64,000 bases of DNA from Bolinopsis microptera (taxonomy: Eukaryota > Ctenophora > Tentaculata > Lobata > Bolinopsidae): NCBI RefSeq assembly GCF_026151205.1, contig NC_087072.1, positions 19,992,103 to 20,056,102 of the forward strand. The letters are read 5' to 3'. This document shows, in pieces, positions 1 through 41,600 of the stretch. The position numbers and the translations under genes are program-made. The stretch's first letter is position 1. Every line of letters starts with the position of its first letter. The notes under the pieces were generated by a model. It made no database searches and was not told where the DNA came from. It saw only the letters and a list, made by a program, of their open reading frames with translations.

Positions 1-1046
1 GGGGGGGGGGGGGGGGGTTTCGGTCGTTGATTACGTAATCAAAATTTTCTTTTTTACCCTCTAGAATAATAGTATAATAACAATTTGACAATATTTAAAT
101 TCAAATTACACTCAATTTCACTCTGAAAGTGATAAAATTTAGAAATTGATCGAATATCCGGCTATAATAGTAAGTAGTTTAGAAGGTGCTTGGCCGGATA
201 TCATAACAATGATTTCGGCTCATCATGATAGCATGATCAGGGTAGCATGAAACGTAGAGAAAAGTGTTTTCTAGGAAAAAAGTCAAGGGGGGGGGGGGGG
301 GGGGTCAGGCCATGATATTGATTACGTAATATTGCTGTCAGGAGGGGGGGTGGTTGGGTCTTGATTACGGTTGATTACAGAAGGGGGGAGGGGGGGTAAA
401 AATTGTTCAAATATTGATTACGTAATATGTGAACGACCCCATACCTTAAAATTTCATATCCAGTAAGCCACTATCCGGTTTTATGGTAGAAACTGGGACT
501 GGAACGATTATAAATGCTTAATTATCCGGCCGAATGTGGATTCAACCGGTCACATAACGATTTAGCTGGATAATCAGTCTTTTGCCGTTCTGACAAAAGT
601 GCTTAAAGACCACTCAAAAATCCGAGAGTTTCAAGCACTTTTGACACATTTATGACAACTTGTGGCATTTTAAGCGGTTTCAAAAGGGGGTTTCTAAGGG
701 CCAGCGATTGGTTCAAATGGTTTCTGATAATTCGCAGGGATAGTTATTGACCCAAAAGAAAATTTGGGTTAAAGAATCCAGAATTTCAAAAATGGTCTTT
801 AAGCACATTTGTCAGAAAACGGCAGAGATGACAGGTAAACCAATCCAACGAAAAAATGATCTTTTAAGAAATCCACAAAGATGTATTTCAAAAATGTCTA
901 CCAAGAGTGGTCAAAAGGTTTAAAGTTTCAACCGTTTAACTTTAACTCAAACAGGTCCTAGACCCGGGCAGAACGCCGTGCTTCAAGGTTAAAGAGAAGA
1001 GAGCCAAAAGAGACGCAAGTATATAAGGTGCACCCCAAATAGCAAC
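1..1046. other. left edge, G-rich runs, no gene seen
   Basis: The window opens with a 17-base G run and has further poly-G/purine tracts near 290-304 and 340-395, some beside short repeats containing ATTACGTAAT. The rest is AT-rich and I see no convincing open frame in it. Further 3' exons of the minus-strand CutC-like/coiled-coil gene may lie here or beyond the left edge. Confidence 0.4.
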
Positions 1047-4000
1047 CTGAAGAGTTTTGAACTCTGGCACAAGCTTTTGAACATTGTTGGTATTGTTTGA
1101 ACTGCGACAGTGGCATTGGCAGCGGGTATTCATCATCTGAGTTGAACATAAAGCTGAGAATTAGTGCGTCAAGGACTGACCAAACTTTTAGTAATTGATA
1201 ATTGATTGTTTGATCTGTAACGTACACATGAAGGTTTAGGGTTCTGGGATTTACACTTTACATTGATAGAATAATTGAAAGGTTACAAATTACCCCTCTT
1301 ATCCCTCATGTAAAACCTACATACTGTAGTTATTGCTCATTGAGAGAAACATTTCAAGAATGAAAAAAACTTCTGGCATAATTGTAACGGTAAGAACAAG
1401 TGATAGAACTAGAATACTTAGAACTTATAGGCAAGCTTACTGGCGGATTCAACGGTTACTTAAAAGTAAATTCGAGACAACTGACCCCAGTGCTAACTCC
1501 TAAAATATTTGGCATTACACGTGACATAACACGTGACATTACACGTAACCGAATATAAAGAGATCTTCTGACCTGTGGAGAGGCGGGAGTAGAATCAAGA
1601 GGACTGTTTGTGTTGTATCTATCACTCTCACTCCTCAGCAGATCAGCCAGCAGGAACCTGATGTCAATGTTCTGCAGTTTGCTAAGTACGGAGGGGTGGC
1701 TGAGGAGGGAGCCCAGGGAGAACGCTCCTAGTCCTCCGTGGTCTGTTTCTTCCGCGCCGTGGTTATTGTTACTGCTTGCCTGCTGTGGTTTTTGTTACTG
1801 TTTGCCTGCTGTGGTTATGTCGTGAGCGTGTGTGAACTGTGACGTGTGTGTGCGACATATTGTTATATTATTAACAATGATTCATAAACTTTTCCTCGTC
1901 TATCGAATATGATCGGAACATTTCAAGAGTGAATATGAATTTCTCATTACTAGAAGTGACTGAGAAATCTCAACAGGATATGATCTTATGATAGAAAACA
2001 GATACTTAATATAACCTGAAACATTCTTAAGAATTACAGCCTAATTATTTCCTGTTCACTCTACCTTAGCCGCTGCAAGTTCCTCATGCAGCCGCTTATT
2101 TTCTTCTCTCAGCTGGTCTACCGTTGTAGACTCTGTGTTTCGAGCTGAAAAACATTTTATTACAAGGTGCAATGTGAGAAGCTCTGTAATTAAGGCAACA
2201 GCATGAGCAGTCGCTTCACACGACAGAAGATTCGTCAGAATCTATTTGACACCGAACATCGGAACATTATCCACAATCTGCGATATAATTAGATGAAGAT
2301 AAGACGTGCAACATAAAATTGTAATAATATATTCTAGTTTTACCAGGTATGATCTTGATTCGGTTTTGTGCATGCTCCTGCAGGGTTGCGATTAGCTGGG
2401 TTCCTCCGATATACCGGTCCGTGCTGACCAAGATCCTCTCAAAGCCGCACTTTATCGCATCGTCCAGCGCTTGGATAGGGTTAGCTATCTCATCAAAGGC
2501 CCTACTGAGGGTACAGGGCAGGGGTCGACACAAACCTAATTAAGGTGGGGTTTAAGTTAATAAACGTTATCATAACATTATTATTACATCTATTTTCGGA
2601 AAAACTTCTATTTTTGAAAACTTAAAAGATATCTAAATGCAGGATTGGTTAATATAAGTAATAATATAAGAAATAATATAAGTAATAATATAAGTTAACA
2701 GAAGTTAATATAAGTTAATATTTAAAGTAATAATATAAGTAATAATATAAGTTAACATAAGTTAATATAAGTTAATATAAGTTAACATAAGTTAATATAA
2801 GTTAATATAAGTTAATATAAGTTAATATAAGTTAACATAAGTTAATATAAGTTAATGTAAGTTAATACAAGTTTATATAAGTTAATATAAGTAATAATAT
2901 AAGTTAATATAAGTTAATATAAGTTAATATACAGTAAGTTAATACAAGTTAATATAAGTTAATATAAGTTATTATAATTAAAGTGCTAGCGATTGTAAGA
3001 CAAGTGTCCGAGAAATTACTCACTGATAAGAGCACTGCACCGATTTATGTCTAGCTGGTTGTTTCTGAAACAAACGTGTGTTCATTGTAGGGTGTAAATG
3101 ATACGACAAGATGACGTTATTCGTCTACGATTTGGACAGTTACTTTGAAAATGCATAGTTTGTAAAGTTCTGTAGTATAAGTTACAAACTATTTTACATT
3201 GTAACTATATAGCTACATGAAAGACTTCCCTACAACGTCTTGTCAGTGTTAAATTCAGCTCAAGCAGGTTTTATAAGAAGTAACAAAACATTTATCAGAA
3301 CTAGTAAGGTTTTATGTGCCAAAAATATGGTCAACATGAAGTAACTGAGGCAGAGTTATAACACATGAAATATTACCAATAAAGTTTTTAACCATTATTA
3401 ATAGAAGGTAAACTCATTTTTTAAAACTCACTGAGAAAGGACACCCAGGACAAATCCATTAGCACCGACATGCTTAGCAATGCTAATCTCCTCCTTCATG
3501 ATCTCGAATTCTGATTCAGAATAACAGTAATCTGTTCTGTAGGGTCGCACAACGACAAATATGGGAAGGGGAAGGTTATCTTTTACAACTTTTAATAGCC
3601 CTGCGAATAAAATTTATTAGTGACAAAGATTACCGATGTAACGAAATGGTGTCAAATGTGATCGAATACTGGTATATATTCTGTTTTATAATTATATAAT
3701 ACAGATGGCATACTGTACCTACTTGTTCGAGGATTCCGTCGCCAAAATTTGAAAAGTTCGAATATTTTAGACCACACCCATTCAATATTAAAACACCTAT
3801 ATTGTTCTCTCTGAACATGCTGGACGCCTAATGTTTTCAGAGACGGTATATTATTAAATGTTGCATCTGATCTGAAAAAATGAGGCAAAACGGATAAGAA
3901 ATGACGAAGTTATCAAGCATTTTGTGTTTGTGTATCTTGTTAACAAAATTGGGCACTCAGTGACTGGGCTAACGTATGCACACTGACTTATGGCCCCCCT

Positions 4001-11400: not shown

Positions 11401-11590
11401 TGAACATGTTAGCTTTTTTAATTTTGTTGTTGTTGTAAAGACCCGTATAGAGCCACCTCTAAGGGCTTTGAGACAGTTTATTAAATATAATATAATAATC
11501 AATAATATCGAAAGTCGTTTCAAAATATTTTCAAACTCAAAGTTGAAATCACACTCACACTAAAAAGATCAATTGTTTTGTCAAATAGTA

Positions 11591-11591
11591 A

Positions 11592-11628
<37 letters not shown>
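11591..11628 (+). repeat. poly-A tract
   Basis: A run of more than 30 A residues on the plus strand. No recognisable retroposon body lies directly upstream, so its origin is not assigned. Confidence 0.8.
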
Positions 11629-11631
<3 letters not shown>

Positions 11632-12029
11632 GACACATTACAGTACGTAAGCATGATTAGCATCAGCATGCCTTTCATTTTATTTGTACCACTTAAGTCC
11701 CAGAACCTTTTATCTTTTAATCCTGCTATAGTTTGTTATAATATACGGCTATTCTAATTTCTAGAAATTTTCAAGCGTGACGATGAAAATTTTATCGCGA
11801 GAATTATCTTTAAGATTTTGTGCATTAAAAAGCCGCGCGGAGTGGGGTAAGGCTTGCTGTTATCAGCGCTTTGGCAGTGAAAAATATGCTGAAATATGTC
11901 AGTCCATTAAGCGAACGTTGTTTATTACTGCTCGTTTATTGTGTGTTTGCTGTCGTCCTATGTTATGTTATGTTATGATATGATGTCATGATTTAGCGAT
12001 TATTGGTCGCTGTATTACTCAATCATCCC

Positions 12030-15000
12030 TCATCTATTGGACTTCCTCAAACCAGGTACGTTGTGTAGCAGAAATGCTGGCCAGCTGTCCTCTGAGTTAG
12101 CTAGTGTTGACTGTTGCTCAAGAAGCACGCGTTTTACGTTCGATTTGTAAATATTTATTGAAAATAAGCTAGGTAGGGACGTGATGTTCTTGTTGGTGTC
12201 TGTTAGAGCTAGTAAAGGTCCTTTAAAAAAGATGGATGCTTTGAAACATCGGTTATTGTACGTATCTAGCCATTCGCTACTGTTCTCATGATTTGAACCA
12301 TGCGTGGGTATGTTATCTGGAAACAAATTTCTAATTGATACAGGTACTGTGTTGGGAAAGTGCTTCATGCGGTGCATTAATGTAAGCGCATTCTTTACGA
12401 TGATGCCGTGTATTGTCAAAATCTCAAATTTGCAGAATGTTTCTCTGGTGTGAGCTGGCAATTTGCCGTCTTTGTAAAAGTAATTTACATATCCTGGCAT
12501 AACCATCCGCATTCCTTGCTTTTGTTTACGGAATAATGTCTCAATGTGACATTTTGCCGCGAATCCCCAGGCTAACGAGCAGTAGTTAACATGTGCCTCA
12601 ATAAAACTATGGTAGAGTTGTAGTCGCACTTTTAGGGGCAGATGTCGTTTTAATTTGAACATGATGCCTATGTACCTACTCATTTTTAATCTTACCGCTG
12701 TGATATGTTTACACCATGTTAGTTTCTCATCAATTATAACACCCAGAAACCGTGCCTCAGTAACCCGTTCAATGTTTGTTCCAGATATGTTGAGACTTAT
12801 TTTGGAATAATATACTTTACGGTTACTGAAGACCATATAGTGGGTCTTCTTCAGGTTTAAAGAAAGCCCGTTGCTTCTTACCCAATTCACTAGAAGTGTT
12901 GCAATCATAGAGAGCTTACTTTGAATTTCTTCCTCGTTATGGCCCGTGACTATAATATTTGCATCATCGGCGTAAAGTATGAACTTGGCCAGGTCTGAGA
13001 TTCCGGGGAGGTCGTTTATATAGATGACGAAGAGTAGGGGGCCCAGAATAGAGCCTTGAGGAATACCATAATTGATCGTCTTGGGACTGGAATCAACCCC
13101 GTTGACTGTGACGAACTGATGACGATCGTGAAGATAGGAGTCGAACCAGCTTAGTGCTATACCTCTAATTCCGTAGTGTTCCAGTTTTTTAAGCAAAATT
13201 TTATGTTCAAGTAGGTCGAAAGCTTTGGAGTAGTCTAACAGTAGGAGCACCGCAATTTGTTTCCTGCCAAGGTAATGAAGGATAGAGTTCTGTGCATTAA
13301 GAAGAGCATGCTCGCATGACATCCCCGGTCTAAAGCCGTATTGGCTTTCGAACAGAGAGCCGTTTTTATCAAGAAATTCAAGGACTCTAGTGTGCATTAA
13401 CTTTTCGTAAATTTTTGAGAATGAGCTAAGAAGAGATATGGGTCTATAGTTAGTGACATCTGTCTTACTACCTCCCTTGTGGATAGGGATTACGCGTGCA
13501 GTTTTAAGAGCAGTTGGAAATATGCCCTGTGTAAATGATGAGTTTATGATAGTAGAAATCACACCGGTGAACTTGCTATCATGGTTTGCGACTTTCATCG
13601 GCCCAATTTTGGTATCCAGTGTTGACTTATTCTTAAATTTTAGAATCACTTCACTCACCTCAGTTGGTGTTACCGGCCTAAGATACATCGAATTCGATGT
13701 TGGGTTCCTAAGATATCTACTAAAACCCCCAGGATCAAAAGTTTGTCTAGCACTAATCTGTGCTTTAATGTTTGAAGCTATATTTGAGAAGTAGTTGTTA
13801 AATTTTGCTGCAACATCGGTGCCATTGCTGATAATAGATCCGTCGTCGCATTTCAGTTTTATAGAATTTTTTTCTTTCAACTTCCTGTTCAACAGCGTGT
13901 TAATCATTTGCCATTGCTTTTTAGAGTTCTCACAATGCTCGTCAAAAAATTTCTTATAATATTTTGCTTTAGCTAAGTCAATGTGCTTGTTGCAGAATTT
14001 ATCAATTTTTTCATACGCTTCATCATTGGCCTTGGTTGAAGTTGTGATTTTTAGGTGGTGGAGCTTATTCCTTCGCGCACACGCATCCTCTAGCCAGGGA
14101 AGAATCCAAGGTTTTGGATCTCTTCGTTCATTTTTACGCCGCGGCCTGGATTTGTTCAAGGGGTATGCCTCAACATAATGTTTGGTGTAAATTTCACAAA
14201 ATTTTTCGTACTGTACTTCACAATTTTCGTGTAAACTCACTTCACTCCAGTCCTCACTTTCGATCAAACTTTGAAATTTAGCATTGTTAGCTTCGCCAAA
14301 TCTCCGTGCCTGTTTGATACTTGGTTTTTTACTTGTAACCCTCCCGCATGGCCCCTCTCTGTCCCCAAGTAGAAGCGTAGTAAGGGTGGCTAGGTGGTCT
14401 GATACGTGTAGAGTAAGCACCTGACAACTTGCCGTGTTCTTGATGTCATTAGAATACACGTGGTCTATGAGTGTTGCACTGTGGTCTGTAATTCTGGTGG
14501 GCCTTGAAATCATTTGAACGAAACCGTAGTTTTCAAAAGTTGCAACAAGGTTCTGACTGTGCACGTCCTTATCGTATTTTATTAGATCAATATTGAAGTC
14601 ACCCGTGAATAAAATGTGTTTACGTGAGTGCCTGTCTAGGCTTCTAAGTACATTATCTAGCAGTTTCATGAACTTATCAACATTACGCGATGGTGAGCGG
14701 TAAACATTGATTAGTAGCTTGGTCTTGTTAAAACCTTTGCAGTTGTGGATTTTTATAAATTGGAATTCACCACTTGTTTCTTCCTCACAGCTGAAGTTTG
14801 GCCTGTACTGTTCTATTTGCTCCTCTGTACATACCTGTCTATTTACGTATAACACCAGTCCACCCCCACGGCCAGATGTACGTGCTGGTTCCTGTAATAT
14901 CGGCTCATGAAATCCCTCTAGAAGTATGTCATTAATACCGTTAGGTAGCTTACTTAGAGCACAGTTTGTTTCATTGAAACTCAGTATATCGTAATTTAGA

Positions 15001-15698
15001 TACGTGTGAATTTCTTCTCGGAAATGAGTTATGTTTTTGTGTAAAGATCGTACGTTTAATGAAAATACTTTTAGTTCATTGGTTTTTGATGGTGAGATAT
15101 GGACTTGTTGAATGTACTCACATCTTGTTAGCATTTCACTAAGATCTTTCCAATACATGGAGTCGTGCTCAAGTTCCTCTATTTGGTTTCCAATTGAATT
15201 TATGAGGCTGGATTTATTGTAAGGGTTGTAAGTGTGCCGGATTGAGGAGGAGTTATAATCATCATTTAGATCTATACTGCTAGTGCTGTAACCAGGTATG
15301 TTTTCTACGCAGCATTTGACGCATCCTAGCTCATATCTATAACACTTCTTGTGGACTGCTAGTTCACACCAATCACACTCTCTCACATTTCTTGAAGAGT
15401 AAGACCAGCCCAGACAACTGTGACATTGCTGCTTGTATTTTTTTGAAGTATTGTGCGAATCTAAGATACATTCATCGCAGGCTCTTATTGGCAAAATACT
15501 ACTAAGGCATTCGTAGCAGGTCCAATAAGTTTTAGCTAGTTCATCGGCTTCTAATTTAGTTAACTTTTCACATTTGTAATGTTTCAATCGTTCGCACAGT
15601 GCACAGTAAAGATGAGGGTGGTTCTTTGGGATCCGTTTTTCACATTTGTCACAGTGGTTTGGCCTGATCTGGTCTACATAACTCGCACATGGTTTCAT
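12030..15698 (-). CDS. LINE ORF2: PHD-like zinc finger, APE endonuclease, reverse transcriptase (1222 aa)
   Basis: Residues about 16-135 hold several CxxC/CxxH clusters, the first reading like a PHD finger (CDKC ... CALC ... HYKC ... CYEC). Residues about 208-440 form an apurinic-like endonuclease: FSLNVRSL, a conserved Glu in FNETN, GRGGGLVLYV, GDFNIDL near residue 366 and a terminal SDH near 434. Residues about 690-960 are a non-LTR reverse transcriptase: [32 protein letters not shown] and the catalytic YADDAN near 909. No RNase H follows. The frame is intact with no stops, so this part is young or under constraint. It nicks target DNA and primes cDNA synthesis from its own mRNA. The CR1/L2 side of LINE diversity is the best fit. 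Confidence 0.9.
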   Translation of the reverse strand: MKPCASYVDQIRPNHCDKCEKRIPKNHPHLYCALCERLKHYKCEKLTKLEADELAKTYWTCYECLSSILPIRACDECILDSHNTSKKYKQQCHSCLGWSYSSRNVRECDWCELAVHKKCYRYELGCVKCCVENIPGYSTSSIDLNDDYNSSSIRHTYNPYNKSSLINSIGNQIEELEHDSMYWKDLSEMLTRCEYIQQVHISPSKTNELKVFSLNVRSLHKNITHFREEIHTYLNYDILSFNETNCALSKLPNGINDILLEGFHEPILQEPARTSGRGGGLVLYVNRQVCTEEQIEQYRPNFSCEEETSGEFQFIKIHNCKGFNKTKLLINVYRSPSRNVDKFMKLLDNVLRSLDRHSRKHILFTGDFNIDLIKYDKDVHSQNLVATFENYGFVQMISRPTRITDHSATLIDHVYSNDIKNTASCQVLTLHVSDHLATLTTLLLGDREGPCGRVTSKKPSIKQARRFGEANNAKFQSLIESEDWSEVSLHENCEVQYEKFCEIYTKHYVEAYPLNKSRPRRKNERRDPKPWILPWLEDACARRNKLHHLKITTSTKANDEAYEKIDKFCNKHIDLAKAKYYKKFFDEHCENSKKQWQMINTLLNRKLKEKNSIKLKCDDGSIISNGTDVAAKFNNYFSNIASNIKAQISARQTFDPGGFSRYLRNPTSNSMYLRPVTPTEVSEVILKFKNKSTLDTKIGPMKVANHDSKFTGVISTIINSSFTQGIFPTALKTARVIPIHKGGSKTDVTNYRPISLLSSFSKIYEKLMHTRVLEFLDKNGSLFESQYGFRPGMSCEHALLNAQNSILHYLGRKQIAVLLLLDYSKAFDLLEHKILLKKLEHYGIRGIALSWFDSYLHDRHQFVTVNGVDSSPKTINYGIPQGSILGPLLFVIYINDLPGISDLAKFILYADDANIIVTGHNEEEIQSKLSMIATLLVNWVRSNGLSLNLKKTHYMVFSNRKVYYSKISLNISGTNIERVTEARFLGVIIDEKLTWCKHITAVRLKMSRYIGIMFKLKRHLPLKVRLQLYHSFIEAHVNYCSLAWGFAAKCHIETLFRKQKQGMRMVMPGYVNYFYKDGKLPAHTRETFCKFEILTIHGIIVKNALTLMHRMKHFPNTVPVSIRNLFPDNIPTHGSNHENSSEWLDTYNNRCFKASIFFKGPLLALTDTNKNITSLPSLFSINIYKSNVKRVLLEQQSTLANSEDSWPAFLLHNVPGLRKSNR

Positions 15699-16508
15699 AG
15701 ATGAACAATGAGTAAAAGTAAAAGTAAAAGTAAAAATAAAATGATATGATGTTTAGTATTAATATAGCACGTAATCCTATCAGGACTGTTTAGCGAGGAC
15801 TGCTCAGCCCTGTTTGTAAATCAGCCCGTGATTTCCTAGTTTCCTGTACCTATACCTTAATACCTCCTGCAGTTAATTACCTCCTGCTGTTCTAACTGTT
15901 CTGTTCTTAACTATGAGAAAACTTTACTTTTACTTTGCAATTATGTAAACACTGTACAGGGTGGGGCGACCGCTAATCTAATGTTAGTCTAATGTTAGTC
16001 GTCTACTGTCAGTTGTGTAATGTACAATGTGTAGTGTGTAATGTAATGTACAATGTATAAAGAAGAACGCAGCTGTGTGGCGAGGTTTTAAGTTTAATCA
16101 AGGACTATATATAACGAAAAATTGAGCTAAGATAAGATATAAGATAAGCGATTTTATCGATGTTTATTTTTCCAAAATGAAGATGAGAATTAGTTGCTTA
16201 GATTTGGTAATTCTTTTGTTTCGTTGCGAGATTGTGGCAAGCATAGAATTAAGTTCTGGGACCAAAAGTGGTATGTTGTTCAGAATAAAATTTAGCTCAT
16301 ATCTCATGGTATGTTATTCAGAATAAAATTTAGCTCATATCTCATAGTACATGATAATATCTTGTTACAACACTCATTTGCAGTAAAACTCTTCAACTAT
16401 ACTAATAAATTGACGGCGTAGTGGCAATGGTCCTTGTCTAAAGCCGAGTAAAACGCGCATTTTATCACGCGACTTTATCGCTAAATATTTTTTTTTAAGG
16501 GGGAGTAA
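15699..16508. other. region between LINE ORF2 and the LTR, with a 38-bp duplication and a polypurine tract
   Basis: 15715-15740 is a run of AGTAAA units just upstream of ORF2. A 38-bp unit (GTATGTTGTTCAGAATAAAA...) is tandemly duplicated at 16270-16345. 16497-16505 is AAGGGGGAG, a polypurine tract three bases before the LTR start, so the DNA from about 16370 is likely the 3' end of the gypsy element. The boundary with LINE sequence is not resolved. No coding frame is recognised. Confidence 0.5.
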
Positions 16509-16681
16509 TGTCAAGGGACATATTGTGATTGATTGATCTAATGATATATTTGATAATATTGTGATTGAGTAATCTAATGATATCATTGATAATACATTCT
16601 AACAATTAACTTATACAGGATGCTATCTGTATCTGGAATCAGTGTGTATCATTTGTAAAAGACCATTGTAACCAACTGACA
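16509..16681 (+). repeat. gypsy-element LTR (173 bp), forward copy
   Basis: It begins TGTCAAGGGACATATTG and ends CCAACTGACA, with the terminal TG...CA and the short inverted TGTCA/TGACA ends of an LTR. A polypurine tract precedes it. It is followed directly by GTGG and gag sequence instead of a leader. The same 173 bp recurs inverted at 20173-20345. Confidence 0.85.
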
Positions 16682-19320
16682 GTGGCAAAGAAGGACATCA
16701 TGAGAAAAAATGCTATGTTAAATTGACCGAAAACAATAGCTCCAATAGCTCTAGCTCCAGCTCCAGAGGATATAATAGCCCCAGCCCCAGCTTGAGAAGG
16801 TCGAATAGCTCAAGTTCCAGAAGTTCTAGTAGCCCCAACTACTTCAAGTTGCCAAAGAAGAACAATTTATGACTATATGGCATCATCTCAGTGAACAATG
16901 TTGAGAAGGACGTGGACATACTATTTGACAGCGGAGCAGGAATATCAGTGATGAGTAAGGAACTGTTTCCTGAATTAGTATCCACCAAGTCCCATAAGGT
17001 TTATGGGATTGGAGGTGTTGAATATGCTGGAGAACCAGTTGAATGCAGGATTCTTATCAGTTCAACTTGGGAGACAAAGCATCTGGTCAAACCTCTGCCA
17101 ATTCCTGACAGGGAGAATTTGTTGATTTTGGGCAGAGACTTTTTGCAACATTTTGGAACCACTGAATTTGACTGGACAAATCAGAGAGTGAGAATTGGAG
17201 AAGACTGGGTTTTCATGGTCTCCGAAGATCATACCAAAGATATCACCAGTATCATCAACAGATGTAAGATTGGTCAAGACCTGGCTGAAAATCAGAAAGA
17301 AAGCATCAAATTGTTGTTAGAAGATTTTTGCCAAGTTTTTGTCAAAAACAGCAAAGCTCCAAAGTTGTGCACCACTGAACTTCATCGTATCTTTAGTAGA
17401 GACGACCGTGTTAGTAAAGACAAGGTACGTAGAATTCCTGACAAATGGAAAAATGAAGTTAATCAACAAGTGATTGAGATGTTAAATAATGGAATTATCC
17501 GCCCTTCTAAATCTCCATACAATAGTAACCCTCTTCTCGTCACTAAACAGGACAATACTAAACGATTTGTCATAGATTTCCGTAATTTGAATAAGAATAC
17601 GATCCAAGATTCTTATCCCCTGCCTGACGTGAATGATATGATTGATGCTTGTTTGAACTGTAACTACTTTACCCAACTAGACCTCGCTTCAGGTTACTGG
17701 TGTTTGGAGGTACATGAAGATGATAAAAAGAAAACTTCATTCAGCGTGCCTAATGGTAAATATGAATTCAATCGTATGCCTTTTGGACTTAAAAATAGCC
17801 AAGCAACTTTCCAAAGGAATATGGATAAAATGATCAATGATCTTAAAGAAAGAGATATTGATGGAGTTGGAGCATTTAGTGATAATGTTTTCATATTTTC
17901 AGAAACATTCGAAGAACACCTCTATGCGCTAACTGCAGTGTTAGAAGAGGTAGAGAGGTACAACCTGTCATTGAAACCCGAGAAGTGTGAATTTGGATTC
18001 AAAGAAATAGACTTCCTAGGATTTCATATCAGACACAATGAAGTGTTACCCAGAAAAGACAATGTTCAAAAGTTGATTGACTTCCCGATCCCTCAAACTA
18101 AAAAGCAGGTTCAAAGACTTTTAGGTATTGGTAACTTCAACAGACGTTTTGTCCCCAAATATGCAGAGATAACAAAACCTTTAACCATGATTCTATCAGA
18201 TAAAGAGAAGTTTGTCTGGGGTAATAAGCAGCAACAAGCTCTAGATCAATTGATAGACAGTCTCACCAAAGCACCAGCACTAGGGTTACCAGATTTCTCA
18301 AAATGTTTCTACATTCAATCAGATGCATCAGAAATCTCAGTGGGAGGAGTCTTGTTTCAGAAAGATGATAAAGGCCGGAATATCACGCTAGGATATCATT
18401 CCAAAACCCTACAGAAATGTCAGAGAAACTGGAAGGTAACAGAATTGGAGCTATTTGCTATCAAAGAGTGCTCAAGAAAGTGGGATGTGTATTGCTCAGG
18501 CAAAGTAATATTTATTACTGACCACGAGCCGTTGAAATTCATCCGTAATCACCAAGACAACAGAGGAAAGATTGTTAGATGGTTGTTAGAGCTTGAATCA
18601 ATTGATTACACTATTGAGTACATCAAAGGAGAAGATAACGAGATTGCTGATGCCCTAAGTAGAGTAGAAATCAGAGAAAATCCTGTAAGCACAGAAGCGG
18701 ATGGAGACGAGTATATCTATCATACTGATGATAAAACTGACTCAAAATACTGTGATATTGAAAAGATTAAAAAGTTTCAAAAGGAGGATAAAGCACTGCG
18801 ATTTGTAGTGAAAAAGCTTGAAGAACAAAAGAAAATAAATAAAGGTCCGTTCAGGAACATCAGGTTTCTCCACATTGAAGATGATGTACTGAAAAGAGGA
18901 GAAAGAATTGTCATCCCAGAAAAGCTACAAAGAGAAGTTGTAGATGAACTGCATGGACAATATCACTCAGGAGCAGAAAACACAGTGATTATGGTGAAGT
19001 CAAGATTTTGGTGGAGACGGATGACTAGCCAAATCGAAAACTGGGTACGTGACTGCCAATCCTGTGCTGCCTGTAAAAGACAAAAAACTCCTAAAGCGGA
19101 ACTAATAATTACACCTGCAGTTCCAAATCCAAGAGAATCGATCAGCATAGACGTGGCAAGTATGCCAATATCCCCACGAGGAAAGTGCTGTTTCCTTTTA
19201 ATTGTAGACTTAGCTACAAGATTCATCTCAGTAGCAGCACTCAGTAATCAGAAAGCTGAAACTCTGAAACAGGCATTGTGGGACAAGTGGCTGTCTATAT
19301 TTAGCATCCCAATAAAGCTG
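16682..19320 (+). pseudogene. gypsy gag tail and pol, truncated in integrase
   Basis: 16682-16870 is the end of gag: the second half of a CCHC knuckle (HHEKKC) and a Ser-rich tail. From about 16891 pol reads protease (LFDSGAGISVMS), reverse transcriptase (QLDLASGYW, MPFGLKNSQATFQ), RNase H (SDASEISVGGVLF, TDHEPLKFI) and an HHCC integrase finger. It enters the integrase core (IVDLATRF) and is cut at 19320, before the second catalytic Asp. The RT box reads AFSDNVFIFS where YxDD is usual, so the second Asp is Asn. The frame is open for over 800 codons, so the loss is by breakage, not decay. Ty3/gypsy class is clear; the lineage is not. Confidence 0.9.
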
Positions 19321-19351
19321 AGATCAATCAATCACAATATGTCCCTTGACA
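19321..19351 (-). repeat. 31-bp inverted LTR end fragment
   Basis: This is the reverse complement of the first 31 bases of the LTR (TGTCAAGGGACATATTGTGA...). It abuts pol at a shared GATCA and abuts gag at CCAC (19352-19355), the complement of the GTGG found after the forward LTR. Confidence 0.9.
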
Positions 19352-20145
19352 CCACAACGAACACATTTTCTTTTGCTGCATCGGTTGGCATAGTGACCGT
19401 TTTCTAGGCATATCCAACATTTTCTGTCTTTGCCATTATATCCATCAGCTTGTGAGTTGGGTTTGTTGTACATAACAATCTGTTCGTCCTCACCATCATT
19501 GTTTTGGTCGTCCTCTTCTTGAAACATTCCCAGCATCCCTTGAACATTGTGCAAACCCTCTCTCAGTTCTTCTGCCCATCTTGGCATTTCATCTGCAACA
19601 AATACATCAAAATCTTCTTTCTCTTTCTTGATGATTTGAGGTGTACTTGTGCTTTTCTTTAGGGTAGTCAATTTATCTTTCGCAATCTTGAAAATTTCTA
19701 CCACTGCTGCTGCATCCATGTCCGCTTTGAATTTGTCAGCATTGTCATCATAGATTTGCTCTCCATCTGGTATGACTTTCAAGTACTTCAGCAGTAGCAT
19801 GTCAGGTGTTATTTTGGCTATATCTGCTTCGCTTTGCAGTAAGAAGAAATAACTGACTATGTCTGTATATGATCTTGATGCTGGCTTCAGGTCCCAAAAC
19901 TCATTCACACTTGATACTCTTCCCACTGTCCCATCTATCAATTCTTCTAAAAGACTAAGTGCTTTGTCTAGGGTATCTTCTTTGATCGCAGTTTCGGCTA
20001 AGAGAACATAGCTGCTGAATACATAAGCCGGTATCATGCTCTTCTTCTGAGCCTCTGTCAGCGTCGCTGTAGCAGCCAGGTATCTCCTCTTCCATTCTCT
20101 CACAGACTGTCCCACTGTTAGGTGTGGTATTGGAGTTTGTGCCAT
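19352..20145 (-). pseudogene. gypsy gag, N-terminal part, inverted relative to pol
   Basis: The frame starts at a Met 28 bases after the inverted LTR and encodes about 265 aa: an alpha-helical capsid-like region, an acidic stretch (EEDDQNNDGEDEQ), one complete CCHC knuckle (CWICLENGHYANRC) and the first half of a second (CVRCG). At 19352 it runs into LTR sequence, adding a few foreign residues before a stop. The missing half of the second knuckle sits at 16686 on the other strand. Gag forms the particle that packages element RNA. Confidence 0.9.
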
Positions 20146-20172
20146 CTTTACTTTATAACGAGAGGATGTTAA

Positions 20173-20345
20173 TGTCAGTTGGTTACAATGGTCTTTTACA
20201 AATGATACACACTGATTCCAGATACAGATAGCATCCTGTATAAGTTAATTGTTAGAATGTATTATCAATGATATCATTAGATTACTCAATCACAATATTA
20301 TCAAATATATCATTAGATCAATCAATCACAATATGTCCCTTGACA
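20173..20345 (-). repeat. gypsy-element LTR (173 bp), inverted copy
   Basis: Reverse complement of 16509-16681 from end to end. In the gag direction it is followed by TTAACATCCTCTCG, with no TGG start, so the usual tRNA primer-binding site is not obvious. Its outer end abuts the SGNH part of the LINE ORF1. Confidence 0.85.
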
Positions 20346-20951
20346 GTATGCAGTGTACCCAGCAGTCAGTCATTGCTGATTTCCCCGCGTGGTTCAGGTG
20401 TAAGCCGTCACGTGACAGGTGAGGAAGTCCGAAACATATGTTCTCAAAGAGTTTGAAATTTGGAGTTCTGAGTGACAGTTTGAGAAGTAATTCATTGAGA
20501 TAGTTAATGCGTCTGTTCATGTTGTTGTAAGGATCAGCGGACATGGAGAGGTTTGTGATGCAGTCAAAGAGGAATTGTGTTTTGTATTTTTGCACGAAAT
20601 GTTTCAGGTGGTTGTGCAGTGTTATCGGGTTAGCTGCGGAGACTTTCATCATGTCATTTATGCCTGCTGATATCAAAACCACGTCAGCCTGTTCGATGGA
20701 TTTGCTGTGCTCATGGAGATCACGCAAAAAGAAGAGGTTCTCTCTAAATGCGATAACAGGCTCACGGAATAAGGAACAGTCAAAGGACGCATTCTTAGAG
20801 TCTGATAGTATGAGGACCTTTTTAGGTCGGCTCGCAGTGCTGGCAGGGTTGCGTGGCGGCCTGGTTGATCTAGCAGAGTGATCTAGAAGAACTCGACATG
20901 TGATGCTGATTCTAGGCCCAGTAAAATCAGATTCTTGAATGGGTGGAACGC
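20346..20951 (-). pseudogene. LINE ORF1, second half: AlkB C-terminus plus SGNH hydrolase
   Basis: The frame continues ORF1 after the 8-bp duplication of the inserted MITE. It starts with the missing end of the AlkB fold (VPPIQESDFTGPRISITCR, giving the R-x5-R 2-oxoglutarate/substrate motif). It then encodes an SGNH/GDSL-type hydrolase: block I LILSDSKN with the nucleophile Ser, GIND as the block III Gly-Asn pair, and DGLHLNHAG as the Asp-His block V. SGNH esterase domains are known in the ORF1 of CR1-like LINEs. The frame is cut at the gypsy LTR just after the last motif, so the C-terminus is lost or replaced by LTR-encoded residues. The downstream Met at 21075 lies in the inserted element and is not a real start. 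Confidence 0.8.
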
Positions 20952-21634
20952 CCCAGTGACATAAATTTAAAAAGGGACTAGGAATCCAGTCTGGAAAGAA
21001 AAAACGGCTACCATATATTTTTAAAACGACTACCATAAATTTTTCGGCCGCTCCGCGGCCGGATAACGATTTCATTTTACTTTGCTAGTTATATTACAGA
21101 GGTTTAGTTATTCATTAGTATAGTTATTAATTCATTAGTATAGTTATTCATAATTGCCAAAAGATTGTGAAAGAATTCCTTTCCGGGTCTCGAACTCGCG
21201 ATCTGCTAATGTAGTAACGATGGATTAACCAACTAGGCTACGATTTCATGTACGCTTTCGTAATATTGACATATACGTCTTCGCGCGTTCCTGCAACTAC
21301 CATACTACCATACTACCAAACAGTCCATACTACCATACTGGTAGTAGGAAAATCTTGGATCCTGACAGAAATATCTTGGATTATTTGGTAACGCGCAAGT
21401 TAAGCGCAAGAACTAGGATCCTGACAGGAATCTGGCATTTGCGCTCGATTCGAACATCTTCTCGGATAAATATAGAATTAAAGTACAGTGCGCGGCGTTA
21501 CAGTGTGTAACAACCGAGAGCGACTATTTTAAAGTTGATTTAATAATTTTTTTGACAAAAATTAGTCGGCGTGGCTATGGAAATTAATATGGCTAGGAAT
21601 TAGATTCTTAGATTCCTCACTTTATGTCACTGGG
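20952..21634. mobile_element. 683-bp hAT-like MITE inserted in LINE ORF1
   Basis: Terminal inverted repeat CCCAGTGACATAAA ... TTTATGTCACTGGG, flanked on both sides by TGGAACGC (20944-20951 and 21635-21642), an 8-bp target duplication typical of hAT transposases. Removing the element and one duplicate joins the AlkB codons in frame. Inside are a duplicated AAACGGCTACCAT/AAACGACTACCAT motif, a tRNA-like segment and a GGATCCTGACAG repeat. No transposase is encoded. Confidence 0.85.
21183..21250 (-). repeat. tRNA-like segment, probable SINE head
   Basis: On the minus strand an A-box-like TAGCCTAGTTGG is followed about 30 bases later by a B-box-like GAGTTCGAGACC, the internal pol III promoter spacing of tRNAs. 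Acceptor-stem pairing is not convincing, so a tRNA-derived SINE head is likelier than a working tRNA gene. It lies within the 683-bp MITE. Confidence 0.5.
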
Positions 21635-22702
21635 TGGAACGCTGTGATCAAACATGTCTTGGCTGGCACGTGACATAGCATACAGAGAGCCGTGGTGTGG
21701 TGTAAGTTCTCCCTTGCCATAACCGAAGGCTAGTTTCCTCCGAAAGGTAATTGGGCGGGATGCCCCCAGAGAGATGGTCATAATGAGGCTTTCAGGGTCT
21801 ATTGAGTCTTCGTTATCACTGTGTGGGGGAATACTGGACGTGTGTTTGTCGTATTTAGTGACCATAAAACTGTTGTAGTGATGAGTTTGGTCGGGGGCAA
21901 GTGTTTTAAAGTGTTCAACAATTTGTTTGAGATACGGATTCGTGCTGATGTCCCGTGGACTGTGTGACCCCCCTGCGTACTTGTAGGGTACGTCCCCATA
22001 GTAGGCCACTTTCCTATTACTGAATGTGCGGTCATAATCCGTGTCGGCGTCTAACAGGTCAGGTGTGAAGCTTTCAAACGGTGTACCGGGGAAAGTCAAA
22101 TAGGCAAGGCCAAGGAAAGTACCTGTGTTCTCCTCGTTACCCGTATCAGTGTGTGTTGTCTGCTGGACTTCAGTTATCAGTGTAGTCGCGTGCTGGATGC
22201 TTTTCTTAAGCTGTTCCATCTGTGCAGCAGCTTCTTGTTCGTGCCTCGTAAAAATTGATATTAGTTCACTAGTGTTGCGAGTCAAGTCCTTGTTGTAAAA
22301 CTCAACCTCAGGTGCAATACGCTTTTCTAATGCGTTTTGGAGTTTCCTCTCTGTATTTCGTTCATTCAGAGCTTTCTCGTCAAGAACTAGAGCTAGTTCA
22401 TTGCGCATTTGTGCAACTGAGAGGTGGCGGTCGCGAATTAACTCAAGGCATAGTCCAGGTGTGAAGGTGTATAGGTTTGTGGTTTGAGTTTCCCGGTTTG
22501 TGGTTTGAGTTTCCCGGTCAGTAAATTCGCCTGGAAAATGTTCAACTTGCGTACCTGCTTCGAGAGTGTTTGCTAGGTAGCCCTCTTGAGTACTGGTAGC
22601 GGTGGGCGGCCCGCTACCTAGCAGCCCGGGAGTAGTCGTCTTATCTTCCGTCTGAAGTTCTCCATCAGGAAGGTCCGTAGTTGTAGTGTCCGTTTCGGCC
22701 AT
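21635..22702 (-). pseudogene. LINE ORF1, first half: coiled coil and AlkB-type dioxygenase
   Basis: The ATG is in a good context (ACACCATGG). Residues 1-80 are Thr-rich with a duplicated NRETQTT unit. About 85-200 are charged and helical, probably a coiled coil as in other LINE ORF1 proteins. From about 210 the protein matches AlkB-family 2-oxoglutarate/Fe(II) dioxygenases: YNSFMVTKYDKHTSSIPPHSD with iron ligands H294 and D296, LIMTISLGASRPITFRRK, and SLYAMSRASQDMFDHSV with the second His at 353. The frame is broken after residue 356 by the MITE and resumes at 20943, where the R-x5-R motif completes the fold. AlkB enzymes remove alkyl lesions or methyl marks from nucleic acids. Every metal ligand is present, so the source copy was probably catalytic. 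Confidence 0.85.
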
Positions 22703-22933
22703 GGTGTGCAGTATAGTTGGTAAAGTATAAGCAGTCGCCCACGATGTACGAGCTTATCAGCTGCTCATTTAAAACGCACACAAATATGATAAGACAATAA
22801 TAGTTTAATAATAATTTGTTAGTCGGGCGGCATTTGCATTTTTATTTAGGTTGTATACTGGACCTAACAAGTTTATTATCAGATGTCTATTTATATTTAT
22901 TATGATATCATTATTCATTCTAATGGCAACAGA

Positions 22934-35632: not shown

Positions 35633-38600
35633 ATGAATGGTGTTGAAGACAACAACAACACTCCTATTCTAGAGGTAATAACACTGGTTAGCATGAATGT
35701 TTAATTGTTCTACCTTCTTCAGTCTCTTACAGAGTAAAATACTTTGATTGACCTACAACTTCATCATATAAGGCTGGATACAATGTACATAGTACCTATT
35801 TGTATAAACACAATTTGTTCTATTGTATTACATTCCTCTAACACAACTGTTTCCCCATCAGGTTGATATAGAAGAGGTGAGAAGTACAAGTATAAGCGAG
35901 TCATCCTCCAGCAATGAACCTCGTATACGGCACGACAGTACCGTAAGATCTAGACATGACAGTAACCAAGAGCAGAGCACGTCAAGTAGTGTTCACAGCT
36001 TTGAGCACCCTGAACCAGAAGCACTCTCTCCTATATCTATAACTAATGGCAGGAAACATCACAGGCGCAATCTCTCCAATCTAACAACTGGTAAGTAACT
36101 TCAATTTAAGATAAACTGTTCTTCAAATCATTTCATCATCAGTTCATCAAATACTTGCCCTTCTGATTTTAAGAGAATTATGTAATTTCTAGAGGTCATG
36201 CTTTATCGTCAAAGACTTCATGAGCTGCCAAGAATGATTTCAGTTATTACCGTACTCCTGGCCCTGTACTGTACCACATCATGGGTATGGCTTGTCTTGA
36301 GGTTCCCACTGAAATTAGATGGTTCCAAAATATCATGTTATATCTAATTTCGTTTGGGTCACCCAGACCTCCTGTAATTCTGAGCCTGTATGTTACACAT
36401 GTGGTACCATGTGTTGTATGTTTCTTGTTTACGACACATGTATCTAATGTGGTTATTGGTTGGGGAGTTTCTTGCTTTTAACTTTATATGATATATGGTC
36501 ATCATGGGATTGAACATAACATCTTGTATTTATCAGTCGTTTTTGCTAAGAATGGGAATAAATGATTCATTGCTTTATTAGTGCAATTAGTGAATTAGAA
36601 GATCCCAACCAATCTTGTTGCTGACAGTATATCTCGTGTCACAGGATCAGGAAGAAGTGGTTCAATGGACTCGGTCTCACTGGGCAACTCTAGTCTCGAC
36701 TATAACACCCACTTCACAGGTCAGTTTTCAAGACATTCCACACTTTTATAACATTTTAAAATAACAACAATTGTTTATTTTTACAACACAATCAAACAAA
36801 ACCAATTATGCTTTATTTTGTTCCATACTTCAATTGATTCTGTTTTGATTGGTGGATTATTGTTTAGAAGTCAAAATTAAAATCAAGCGAGGACAGTTAT
36901 ATGCACCAATTAAATCGGAAGTTGAAATTGAAAACAAGATGTTGGATTTTACAGCAGTGACATTTGCACACATACATCATCTTTTACATTAACTAATCAT
37001 ACAGCATGGAGTAACCCGGATAACCCACTAACCCATTTCTTTTACAGAGCTTCCAAGTCCGATAGACACTTCAACCCTGGAAGATATTTCACTCCATGAC
37101 GAAGATGACTCAGAAGACACGGACCCAAAGAAAAAACAAAACTCCACAACCAGCAAAATGTCATTGCTTGCCAGGTGCGGTTCGTGTTAAAAAAAATAGA
37201 AATTATTGTTATTTAAATTGATATTGGAGTTGATCTTTCTTTTGGACACGCGCCAAGATCTCAAAGCATATTAAGCACTTTGAGAGTTGGGACAGGTTTT
37301 TTTTATCAAAAGATTGAAATTCAATCATCTACAGTAGGTCAGTGTCGGACAGTGTAACAATTTAATATCCTGATTGCTTAAAATTGGATACGCAGAATAC
37401 TGAATTTCTGTGGAAATGCATGGCATTATTCGTTCCAAGGAATTAGTGTAACGTGGGGTTAAGTTATATTATGTATTATATTAGGTTACTTTATGTATTG
37501 TACCGTATCCCGGTATCCAGATCGTGCATTATGTTAATTCTTTGCATTACCTCGTACTACGATTTGAGGTTTTAAGGTCTTGCTCATAAAATGGGATGGG
37601 AAATTGTCTCAGCATTTAGAAAACAGGTTTCGTGATCTGTTTATAGATCACGTGACTCGAGCGTGATCAAACCTTTTTTAAAGTGCGTTTATGCATGAAC
37701 ATTTGAGATCAGATCAACTATGCAAACATTTTCAGGAAGCTGTTCAAGCGCTCAGAGCCAGTAGTGTTGACCACCAATCTCATCTTTGAAAACAGACCTA
37801 GGTAAGAATCAACTTCATAAGATTTATTGTACTAAATTTAAACTAGCGATATTGGTCACCCCCATCGTTCAACCATGTTTGTTGGGTACTAAATACCGAA
37901 CGGGAGACATGGTTAGCTTATTTATAAGATTAGCTGAACACAATAAAACACATACATAGTATTAGTGTACATACCACAATAGTTTACATACCAGACTGTT
38001 CCAACGTTCCGGTAATTGCCCGCCAAGTGGATTCCATGTGACTGTTAGGCTGTCACGTGACATATCTCAAAGGTGTAGAGATGTCCATGTTCAGTACAAT
38101 GACACAGATGGTCATCCTACTGTATCGCTGTGACGTCACGGATAATAATGTGGAAATTATGCGGTATATCGGCATCAGCAGATGTTTAACTTTAGTATCT
38201 ACGATTTTACAATTTAAGCTCGAATAGCAGTGTAAACTGTAGCTTAGCGCGAACAATAGTATTTGATACAATTGTCAAATTAACAACAGCTGATAGTTTG
38301 ACACATGCCCATGTAATGTAAAAGTAGGTGAACATTGTATTAATATTTATAATAATAATAATAATAACGCTTTATTTGTATACCGCTTAGGCCGTATAAG
38401 CGACCAAAGTCCAAAAAATGGAGTTGATACTGGCCAACAAAGCGGTGCAGATAAATTTACCTTAGTAGTCCCTTTTCTAATCAAAAATTCAAATTTATAA
38501 ATTGTAGATTGATCTTAAAGTCCTGCGTCCATGACTACTGAATCACCAAAAATACTGTTCGCACATACAGGATAGGCTTGATGAAATAGATGGGTCTTGA

Positions 38601-41600
38601 GAGCCTTCTTGAAAACATCCAGTCGAGAGATGGAGCGTAGTGAGTAGGGAAGTGTATTCCAGATTTTAGGAGCAGTGTGAGAGAAAGCACCAGCTGTAGC
38701 CCTCAGCCGTGATAAAGGAGGGCGTTCCAGTAGGAAGAAGTCATGGTCCATTCTGACATGATGTTTACTAGTGTCCCTAATTTTGACCATTGTCCTTAGA
38801 TATTCAGGAGCACAATCGTTTAGGCACTTGAAAACCAGTAACGCTATCTTGAATTTGATTCGCATTGCTACAGGTAAGAAGTGTAATTCAATCATATAGG
38901 GTGTGATGGGCTCCTGTCTCAACTTCCCATGAAGTCCGAATATGAATCTCACAGCAGTATTCTGCACTTTTTGAAGTTTCTGGAGAAGTCTTTCAGAAAG
39001 GGCACCATAAGTAGCATTTCCATTGTCCAGAATGGAATGAATTGAAGCGTGTACCATTTGGATTTTGAGCTCCTTACTCAGTTTGGAACCTATTCTGCCA
39101 AGATTTCGCTGATTTACATAGCAAACTCTGACAACGTTGTTGATCTGTGCCTCTAAATTGAGATGGTTGTCAAAAATAAATCCCAGATTCTTTGCTGACT
39201 TGGTAGGTTTAATGGAGCATATAATGCTGTCAAGATTGAATTCAACTTGTTTTGGAGCTTTGGAGTTTGTAGAGATCTCGATTATCTCACTTTTATTGTC
39301 GTTGAGTTTCAGGTAGTTCTCACTCATCCATGATTTGATGTGCTCGAAACATTCTTTCAATTTGCTCTTCATAGATTCAATGTCCATGTCGTTCTTAGGA
39401 TCAAATGAGAAGTATATCTGAGTATCATCAGCATATAGATGGATTTGGAGACCATGCATACTTGCAATATCTTGTAGCTGTTTAGTGTAAAGGATGAAAA
39501 ATATAGGACCAAGAATTGAGCCCTGAGGAACTCCAATCTCGAGGTCACAGAGAGAGGAATATTCACCCTTAACACCAACGATAAAGGATCGATTTGACAG
39601 GTAGCTTGCAACCCATTGAAGAATAATACCACTAAATCCATAGCTATGTTCGAGTCGTCTCAAAAGTCTTTTGTGATTGATGGTATCAAATGCAGCTGAC
39701 AAGTCAAGAAGAAGAAGAACAGTATGACTCTTCTTGTCAACTTGGAGGAGTATATCATTATGTACCTTGAGCACTGCAGTTTCACAGCTCATGTTTTTCC
39801 GGTAACCTGATTGATTTGCTGCGAAAAGATTGTTCTTATTTAGGTACTCGGAAAACTGTGAGTGGGCACACTTTTCTATAACCTTGGAAATAAAACTGAG
39901 GTTACTCACAGGTCTATAGCTTTTCAAGTCGTCTGCATCTAGAGAGGCTTTCTTTAGGACTGGTCGTACTATAGCAGACTTCAGAGCATGTGGAAAATAG
40001 CCCTCTTGGAGGGATAGGTTAACTATGAGGGTGATATGAGGGAGCAATTCATCGAGGCAGTGCTTGAGGAGCCATGTTGGAAGAGGATCGAGTTCACACG
40101 ACTTATTATTCATCGTCTTAGTAATCAGGGAAAGAACCTCTGATCGAGTAACTAATCTGAAAGCTGTAGCAGAGCATGGTAGAGAACTATGTGTATCATT
40201 AGGCATCTCTAACTCTTTTACACAAGGTTTGTCTTCAGATTGACTATCAGCACTGGACAGGTTTTCCTCTGAGATAGACCCATAAATCTTCTTTACTTTA
40301 TCGTCAAAGTAGTTTTTGAGACTTTCTGCAACTGCTTGATGCGTGGGCCCAGAAGGGGACTTCTGAGAAAGATCTTTATCCAGAAGGTTATTTATAATTC
40401 TGTATGTAGCTTTTGGATCTCCTTTAGCATCTGTAAGTCGTTTCTCATAATAGCGATTCCGTTCTCTAGAGATGATTAAGGTAGTATCTACACAAGCTTC
40501 CCTGTAGATTTCTCTATAATCTTGAGCATCAGCCATACCTTTATGCTTCTTCCAGAGTCTTTCAGCAGCTCTGCGCTTTTTACGGGCATCATTGCAGTTT
40601 TCATTCCACCAGTCACTACGACCAGGTATACAATAGATGTTCTTAGCTGGTGCATGCTTATTAAGAACTGAGGATATAACAGAATCGTATTTGTCGACTG
40701 CGTCATCTAAACTAGTTAGCTGGGATGGAGATGGCATGTGGAGTACAATGTCAGCTTTGAAAGCATCAATATCAATTTTTCTAAACTCACGAACTGTTTT
40801 TTGTTCCTTACTTGGCTGCTTTGATGACACATCAATCTCGGGTGCACTAAACTTAACCAGGAAGTGATCTGACGTTGTGCCCGTGTCTTCCACAATTTCA
40901 AGCTCTGTGATGTTTAAGTTGTCAGCCGGTGATTCCAATGTTAGCACTAGGTCCAGTGTGCCGCCAGAGATGTGTGTTGGTGAGGAAACATGCTGCTTCA
41001 AGCCTTTTGAATGACAGAGTGCCATGAATTGTTTAGCCCAATAGTCTGGATCCTCTACATGAAAGTTGAAATCCCCTGCTAATATAGGAATACCAGATTT
41101 AGTTATCAAGGTATCCATGTAATCAGAAAACTGTTCAAGAAACAATTTCTTTCGGGTTTCTTGATATTTCTTATGAGAAGAAACTTGAGTTGATCGATAA
41201 AGGACACAAAATCTGATCAAGTGAGATTTTGCTCTGAAGACAGTTTCCAAAACCTCAAAGGAACTAAACTTCATACTGTTTCTTGTTAGGGAGACAACCT
41301 TTGGGTCATAGATGAAGGCAACACCGCCACCCCTCCCACGTCTTGGAGCACTAATAATATCATATTTGTGGTCTTTCACCTCAGCGATTTTGGCCTTATC
41401 ATCAACTCTCAGCCAAGTCTCTGTCAGGAAGCATATATCCACGTTCTCTTCTCTCAGTAGCTCTAGTACAGATACCGTTTTGTTGCAAATGGATCTTGCA
41501 TTAAAGGTTGCCATTTTCAGAGCATGGGGTGGACTGTGATGGTGTCCTGGTGTCACATCATGTTTTTTGAGTCATATTCTGTATTCATCATTAGCCTCTG

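Follow-up and report, generated by a model that had tools for sequence, protein, structure and literature searches.

The window analysed in this work is a stretch of 64,000 nucleotides from the ctenophore Bolinopsis microptera (NC_087072.1, positions 19,992,103 to 20,056,102), and its minus strand carries a copy of a long interspersed nuclear element (LINE) in which the first open reading frame (ORF1) encodes a long helix, an AlkB dioxygenase domain and an SGNH hydrolase domain. The copy (11430..22801, family A) has its 5' end at about 22801 and its 3' end, with a CAACAA-type tail, at about 11430. ORF1 starts with an ATG at 22702, and its 5' part (21635..22702) includes the long helix, a probable coiled coil (22166..22351), and the N-terminal and central part of the AlkB domain (21635..22120) with HSD, the Glu of HxDxE and the second Fe-His. 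The C-terminal part of the AlkB domain, with R-x5-R, was located at 20869..20951 by the register of L013, a copy in the same genome with both domains in one uninterrupted ORF of 582 amino acids (aa); in L013 numbering the helix covers about residues 118-179. The SGNH domain (SDS, GIND, DGLH) lies at 20344..20826, its last part being lost to an insertion. The second ORF of the same element (ORF2; 1222 aa, 12030..15698) encodes a PHD/C1-like finger, an apurinic/apyrimidinic (AP)-like endonuclease of the APE type and a reverse transcriptase (RT). Residues 1-358 of ORF1 are 100% identical to those of L013, and at the nucleotide level the identity is 100% over window positions 22801-21631 and 99.8% over 20951-20344. 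Compared with L013 and L014, the whole copy shows 97.7-100% identity in blocks, with ends common to the copies, and its ORF2 is 99% identical to that following the fused ORF1 in L013-L015. Because of this near-identity and the two insertions described below, the window copy is a two-ORF element (22801-11430) that was broken recently. The window pieces were not spliced together; natural uninterrupted copies were used for all analyses. An earlier sequence-only reading had named the motifs HxD, second His, R-x5-R, SDS, GIND and DGLH, every one of which was found, and the single coil-AlkB-SGNH frame that it had predicted once an insert was set aside exists uninterrupted in L013.

That reading had recognised one 683-bp break. 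The insert is indeed present (20952..21634) and resembles a miniature inverted-repeat transposable element (MITE), with 14-bp inverted ends CCCAGTGACATAAA and a flanking 8-bp direct repeat TGGAACGC; with such repeats it is presumably hAT-like. The size of 683 bp comes from our reading of the flanks, and a script gave a 12-bp repeat TGGGTGGAACGC as the longest flanking one, making the insert 679 bp. Since in the L013 register the second Fe-His (about 21646-21644) lies a short way before the insert and R-x5-R (about 20913-20893) comes after it, it is the AlkB domain itself that is seen from the sequence to be split. A second break had been overlooked: a 3.8-kb insertion (16506..20348) with inverted ends of 176 nt (16506-16681 and 20173-20348) removes the last ~26 codons of ORF1 and parts ORF1 from ORF2 (15698-12030). 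The ORFs of this inserted element are oddly arranged in opposite directions: the minus-strand one is gag-like with a CCHC motif, and the plus-strand one encodes a gypsy-like protease-RT-RNaseH-integrase.

Both halves of ORF1 match their profiles or folds. The minus-strand ORF 22702-21617 matched Pfam 2OG-FeII_Oxy_2 above the gathering score (E 3.4e-13), and the minus-strand ORF 21075-20326 matched Lipase_GDSL_2 below it (E 1.2e-4). The model of P0001, a 95%-identical relative, contains a 62-residue helix (112-173), and that of P0055 a 42-residue helix. Neither RRM nor CCHC was listed at E 0.1 in the 14 ORF1s scanned, so the models suggest the layout of an esterase-type (type IV) LINE ORF1, with a coil upstream of the esterase; the SGNH fold and its Ser, Gly, Asn, Asp and His residues are present as well. 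The esterase structure of the zebrafish ZfL2-1 ORF1 protein (ORF1p), which we take to be PDB 4c1b, is matched by the SGNH sequence only marginally (E 0.031), and it does not appear in the top 50 of either VIA structural-match list, which excludes nothing.

The window's own genome (264.65 Mb, 232 contigs) was searched for further copies, and all match counts are lower bounds. The AlkB piece gave at least 125 matches (113 of 728 candidates scored), the SGNH piece at least 123 (150 of 159 scored) and an ORF1 of a second lineage, lineage II, at least 82 (79 of 812 scored); 22 of the lineage II matches extend over residues 1-550 with 96-100% identity, each in a frame of 551-552 aa without stops. 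According to the SGNH and lineage II queries, 69 of 83 AlkB matches in stop-free frames of at least 500 aa have SGNH in the same frame. Twelve of the other 14 are frames of 606-646 aa whose SGNH was missed by those two queries, and the two that were read (L030 and L031) both contain it; of the remaining two, one has a TAA with the lineage II query and the other (L032) a disrupted SGNH. Among 25 shorter frames, 10 were matched to SGNH and 15 were not. Conversely, the four divergent SGNH frames fetched (L033-L036, 593-646 aa) all contain AlkB, and no SGNH-only ORF1 was found among them. Homologue searches returned 53 and 88 proteins, and all 11 with a named organism are from Mnemiopsis leidyi, including a gene model (P0131) with the order AlkB (partial)-SGNH-RT. 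A search for stand-alone AlkB relatives gave five proteins at E 1e-10 among 817 candidates, at least one of which (P0140) is probably an ORF1 piece because its N-terminus is ORF1-like. The window copy alone, with its two insertions, could give the look of unrelated ORFs joined by insertion or of a host AlkB gene beside a LINE. This explanation is rejected, with a probability close to nil, because the fusion recurs genome-wide in near-identical uninterrupted copies on many contigs, with common 5' and 3' ends and a common ORF2. It is practically certain that the architecture long helix-AlkB-SGNH is that of a LINE ORF1, as the sequence-only reading had supposed for a retrotransposon protein carrying both domains. 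The refuting condition set by that reading, that the two domains share a frame in no other genomic copy or that neither half matches its profile, does not hold.

The identity of the element follows from its ORF2, in which Pfam recognised RVT_1 (3.5e-35) and Exo_endo_phos (2.6e-12), with C1_1 and PHD below the cut-off. The AP-like endonuclease and RT define an APE-type LINE, that is, a non-long terminal repeat (LTR) retrotransposon. A same-strand RT match lies downstream of ORF1 in 19 of 20 fetched 10-kb loci, and in 18 of those 19 the start of ORF2 is no more than about 3 kb away. The other is L030, whose RT match on the same strand begins at a distance of 4.9 kb, with an oppositely oriented LINE in between, and could be part of a different element. 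The twentieth locus, L016, retains no more than residues 1-74 of ORF2 (0.8 kb downstream). The ORF2 of L019 is broken by stops and that of L025 is partly deleted; 15 ORF2 frames of 855-1253 aa without stops were read. Families A and C-F have an ORF2 related to the window's own (54-67%). The downstream PHD-endonuclease-RT ORF expected by the sequence-only reading was thus confirmed in its endonuclease-RT part, and the PHD-like N-terminus, below gathering score, is present in family A and the families closer to it. The 3' ends, surveyed in families A-E and G/H, are CAACAA (A), CAATCAATCA (D), CAAACAAAC (E), TCAATCAA (G/H), A-rich (C) and poly-A (B), and dispersed copies share their 3' ends and the repeat or poly-A tail, as LINEs do. 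Candidate target-site duplications, taken without a chance control, are at least 13 bp in L019 and 5-7 bp in the other 14 copies. The Pfam matches of the window's ORF2 include no RNase H; this and the tail type are only suggestive of the CR1/L2 clade.

A further LINE lies in the window at 38515-43007. Its ORF1 matches PHD and CCHC at scores close to the cut-offs, its endonuclease-RT ORF2 is about 28% identical, and no AlkB match was found in it. Three fragments of family A on one strand, spaced by ~5.1 kb (L016 and G000:C10:4948255-4958929), may form a tandem array of truncated copies. Two other frames of 839 and 820 aa (L037 at 982-3501, G000:C1, and L038 at 1037-3499, G000:C8, in the fetched pieces) have an N-terminal part whose P-loop weakly resembles that of helicases, joined to a LINE-type SGNH at the C-terminus that shares 44 and 42% identity with the SGNH of the window. 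This SGNH has other residues in place of the catalytic Asn and His (GIHD/GIYD, DGLY), and by sequence it looks like a captured, catalytically dead copy. An SGNH match at G000:C11:648128-648394 lies within an open frame of 1854 aa.

By comparing ORF1 and ORF2, conflicting relationships were found. ORF1s of lineage I carry the motifs LSDSKN/SAGIND/RDGLHLN and those of lineage II SSSMF/GTN/DNVHLN. The ORF1 of family B (L017) clusters with that of family C inside lineage I (support 98/97), whereas its ORF2 is only 24-27% identical to the lineage I ORF2s and its position is external to them (99/100). An ORF2 tree constrained to join B with C was rejected by the approximately unbiased (AU) test (p 4e-6), as was one joining B with A and C (7e-7); in the ORF1 tree, excluding B from the lineage I clade was rejected more weakly (p 0.026). 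Both trees hold long branches, including that of B's ORF2. Furthermore, families G and H are 97% identical in ORF2 and 60% identical in ORF1, and B ends in a poly-A tail, in contrast to the short-repeat ends of A, D and E. Because these relationships of B and of G and H conflict, the sequences indicate that ORF1 moves between ORF2 lineages as an exchangeable cassette. Such exchange has been reported for other ORF1 types (PMC4120745, PMC3905857). The LINE-associated fused ORF of the sequence-only reading is real, but as a widespread exchangeable cassette rather than as a single element.

A residue census covered 156 proteins (141 of 144 database proteins and 15 genome ORF1s), of which 128 have at least 480 aa. 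Among these 128, the AlkB residues H294, D296 and R373 are kept in 128, and H353, R367 and Glu298, which presumably contacts the base, in 127; in SGNH, Ser405 is kept in 128, Gly450 and Asn452 in 127, His538 in 122 and Asp535 in 118. In six between-family pairs the proportion of nonsynonymous differences (pN) was 0.10-0.35 and that of synonymous differences (pS) 0.60-0.91 in both domains. The synonymous rate (dS) was saturated in these pairs except in the AlkB of G and H, where the ratio to the nonsynonymous rate (dN/dS) was 0.09. The N-terminal part is less constrained (dN/dS 0.27-0.41 in the five pairs giving a value). Near-identical copies gave 0.15-0.41 in five pairs, and L017/L018 and L017/L019 gave 1.2 from five changes each, which is uninformative at so few changes. 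These ratios indicate that ORF1 is kept under purifying selection, and the AlkB domain is predicted with good confidence to be an active dioxygenase. The fold might instead have been co-opted only to bind nucleic acid, catalysis being incidental, and this would suit esterase-type ORF1ps, which are described as having no structural RNA-binding domain (PMC3905857), just as no RRM or CCHC was listed in the 14 ORF1s scanned here. However, three iron ligands and two 2-oxoglutarate arginines kept in 127-128 of 128 proteins would be needless for pure binding, which makes such co-option very improbable.

Several observations weigh against the functional explanation proposed below. SGNH matches stay below the Pfam gathering score in all ORF1s scanned; at E 0.1, none was obtained for L034 or L036. 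A third lineage has DS/GIND/GxH in its SGNH, with the Asp replaced or shifted. The AlkB of L017 and L021 reaches only the weak PF03171 profile. The position that we take to be Asn206 of AlkB is Ser in 151 of 152 proteins, and that presumed to be Asn120 has Thr or Asn in the majority of rows inspected. Moreover, ZfL2-1 ORF1p is reported to be dispensable in HeLa cells (PMC3905857).

The AlkB domain has HxD...H...R-x5-R and a jelly-roll fold nearest to ALKBH2/3. ALKBH2 is the best structural match, with ALKBH2 and ALKBH3 within 1 Z of each other in one comparison, and by sequence ALKBH3 outscores ALKBH2. Human ALKBH2 and ALKBH3 are 22-31% identical to the domain in structural alignments; unlike it, they are host repair enzymes whose aligned parts include neither a coil nor an SGNH. 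Neither FTO nor ALKBH5 was found among the sequence matches. ALKBH2/3 are enzymes of 1-methyladenosine (m1A) and 3-methylcytidine (m3C), whereas ALKBH5 and FTO act on N6-methyladenosine (m6A); the substrates of ALKBH3 are single-strand DNA and RNA. Of the two substrates proposed by the sequence-only reading, m6A is thus less likely and 1-methyladenosine likelier, and an m6A eraser was demoted from first choice because ALKBH2/3 are nearest. Stripping of m6A or other marks from the element RNA would avoid degradation or silencing by host readers, a role proposed for the AlkB of orchid Gypsy elements, and an AlkBH5-like orchid protein encoded by a Gypsy element demethylates m6A in single-stranded RNA in vitro (PMC9289625). 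Such evasion disagrees with the ALKBH2/3 subgroup and is weakened by human L1 data (PMC7873242), and we consider it improbable.

We hypothesize, at slightly better than even chances for the explanation as a whole, that the ORF1p has three parts, with AlkB clearing methyl groups and SGNH acting at membranes. The protein would multimerise on its own RNA via the coiled coil, and the AlkB domain would strip the element RNA, and perhaps the single-stranded cDNA, of putative methyl groups on the Watson-Crick face (m1A, m3C). These groups would otherwise halt the element's RT during target-primed reverse transcription. The SGNH domain may tether or release the particle at membranes, as proposed for ZfL2-1 ORF1p, the esterase of which is enzymatically active and binds phospholipids (PMC3905857). 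It is known that m1A and similar marks hinder RTs, the R2 RT of OTTR among them, and that capture rises after AlkB treatment, by a modest amount with intact tRNAs and clearly with 3' tRNA halves (PMC12140624). Template or cDNA clearing could be the selected role of the AlkB domain, at somewhat under even chances, and a shade more tentatively, the exchangeable coil-AlkB-SGNH cassette may let unrelated LINE polymerases copy methylated, RT-blocking templates. Alternatively, AlkB could remove 3-methylcytosine (3mC) or 1-methyladenine from DNA at the integration site or in the new cDNA strand, and not from RNA, such lesions being, for example, side products of host cytosine methyltransferases. The best structural match, ALKBH2, is a double-stranded DNA repair enzyme, ALKB2 is reported to co-evolve with the 3mC-introducing DNA methyltransferases (DNMTs), and CG methylation is present in Mnemiopsis (PMC9246332). 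However, ALKBH3 stands above ALKBH2 by sequence and is structurally tied with it in the comparison mentioned, and the domain sits in the RNA-packaging ORF1 protein and not in ORF2, so DNA repair appears unlikely.

Like the esterase-type ORF1 of CR1/L2/RTEX LINEs, e.g., ZfL2-1, the ctenophore ORF1 has a C-terminal SGNH preceded by a long helix or coiled coil, is without RRM or CCHC and is exchanged between ORF2 lineages (PMC3905857, PMC4120745), but it adds an ALKBH2/3-type dioxygenase between coil and esterase, and its SGNH resembles that of ZfL2-1 only at the marginal level given above. The giant Ty3/Gypsy elements of Phalaenopsis also carry an AlkB-family domain with demethylase activity in vitro, and this is the only recognised report of AlkB in a retrotransposon among the open-licence matches listed. 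There, as described, it is a separate ORF of the AlkBH5/m6A subgroup in a plant LTR element (PMC9289625), whereas here it is fused with SGNH in a LINE ORF1. Identity with the orchid type was rejected on the endonuclease-RT ORF2, the LINE-type 3' ends and the ALKBH2/3 relationship. Plant RNA viruses likewise combine a mobile RNA element with an AlkB fold, and many viral AlkB folds were among the top 50 of a BFVD search with the lineage II model, but there the domain belongs to replicases. A viral origin was considered and rejected: a scan of viral contigs with one AlkB-alignment peptide pattern gave 26 pattern matches, none confirmed as a relative. In bdelloids, LTR retrotransposons have additional ORFs that are shared between retroelement types, with esterase among the terms used; the term AlkB does not occur in that paper (PMC5408684). 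Among the matches listed in the open-licence PubMed Central literature no AlkB in a LINE was found, a scope beyond which lie Repbase and most subscription papers. The AlkB-carrying ORF1 is a variant of the esterase-type LINE ORF1, and the pairing is without an earlier report among those matches.

In summary, the ORF1 of these young APE-type LINEs consists of a long helix, probably a coiled coil, an ALKBH2/3-type Fe(II)/2-oxoglutarate dioxygenase and an SGNH domain. Esterase-type ORF1ps have been called unique among ORF1ps in having an enzymatic function (PMC3905857). A second enzyme, directed at nucleic acid, points to methylation of RNA or cDNA as a limit on LINE replication in these animals. 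Template clearing by the cassette, if true, would be, to our knowledge, the first enzymatic repair of its own template by a LINE retrotransposon and a natural counterpart of AlkB-assisted RNA sequencing. The swapping of ORF1 between distant ORF2s bears on LINE recombination, and a role of ORF1p beyond RNA packaging, a long-standing question, becomes directly testable with many natural variants under selection.
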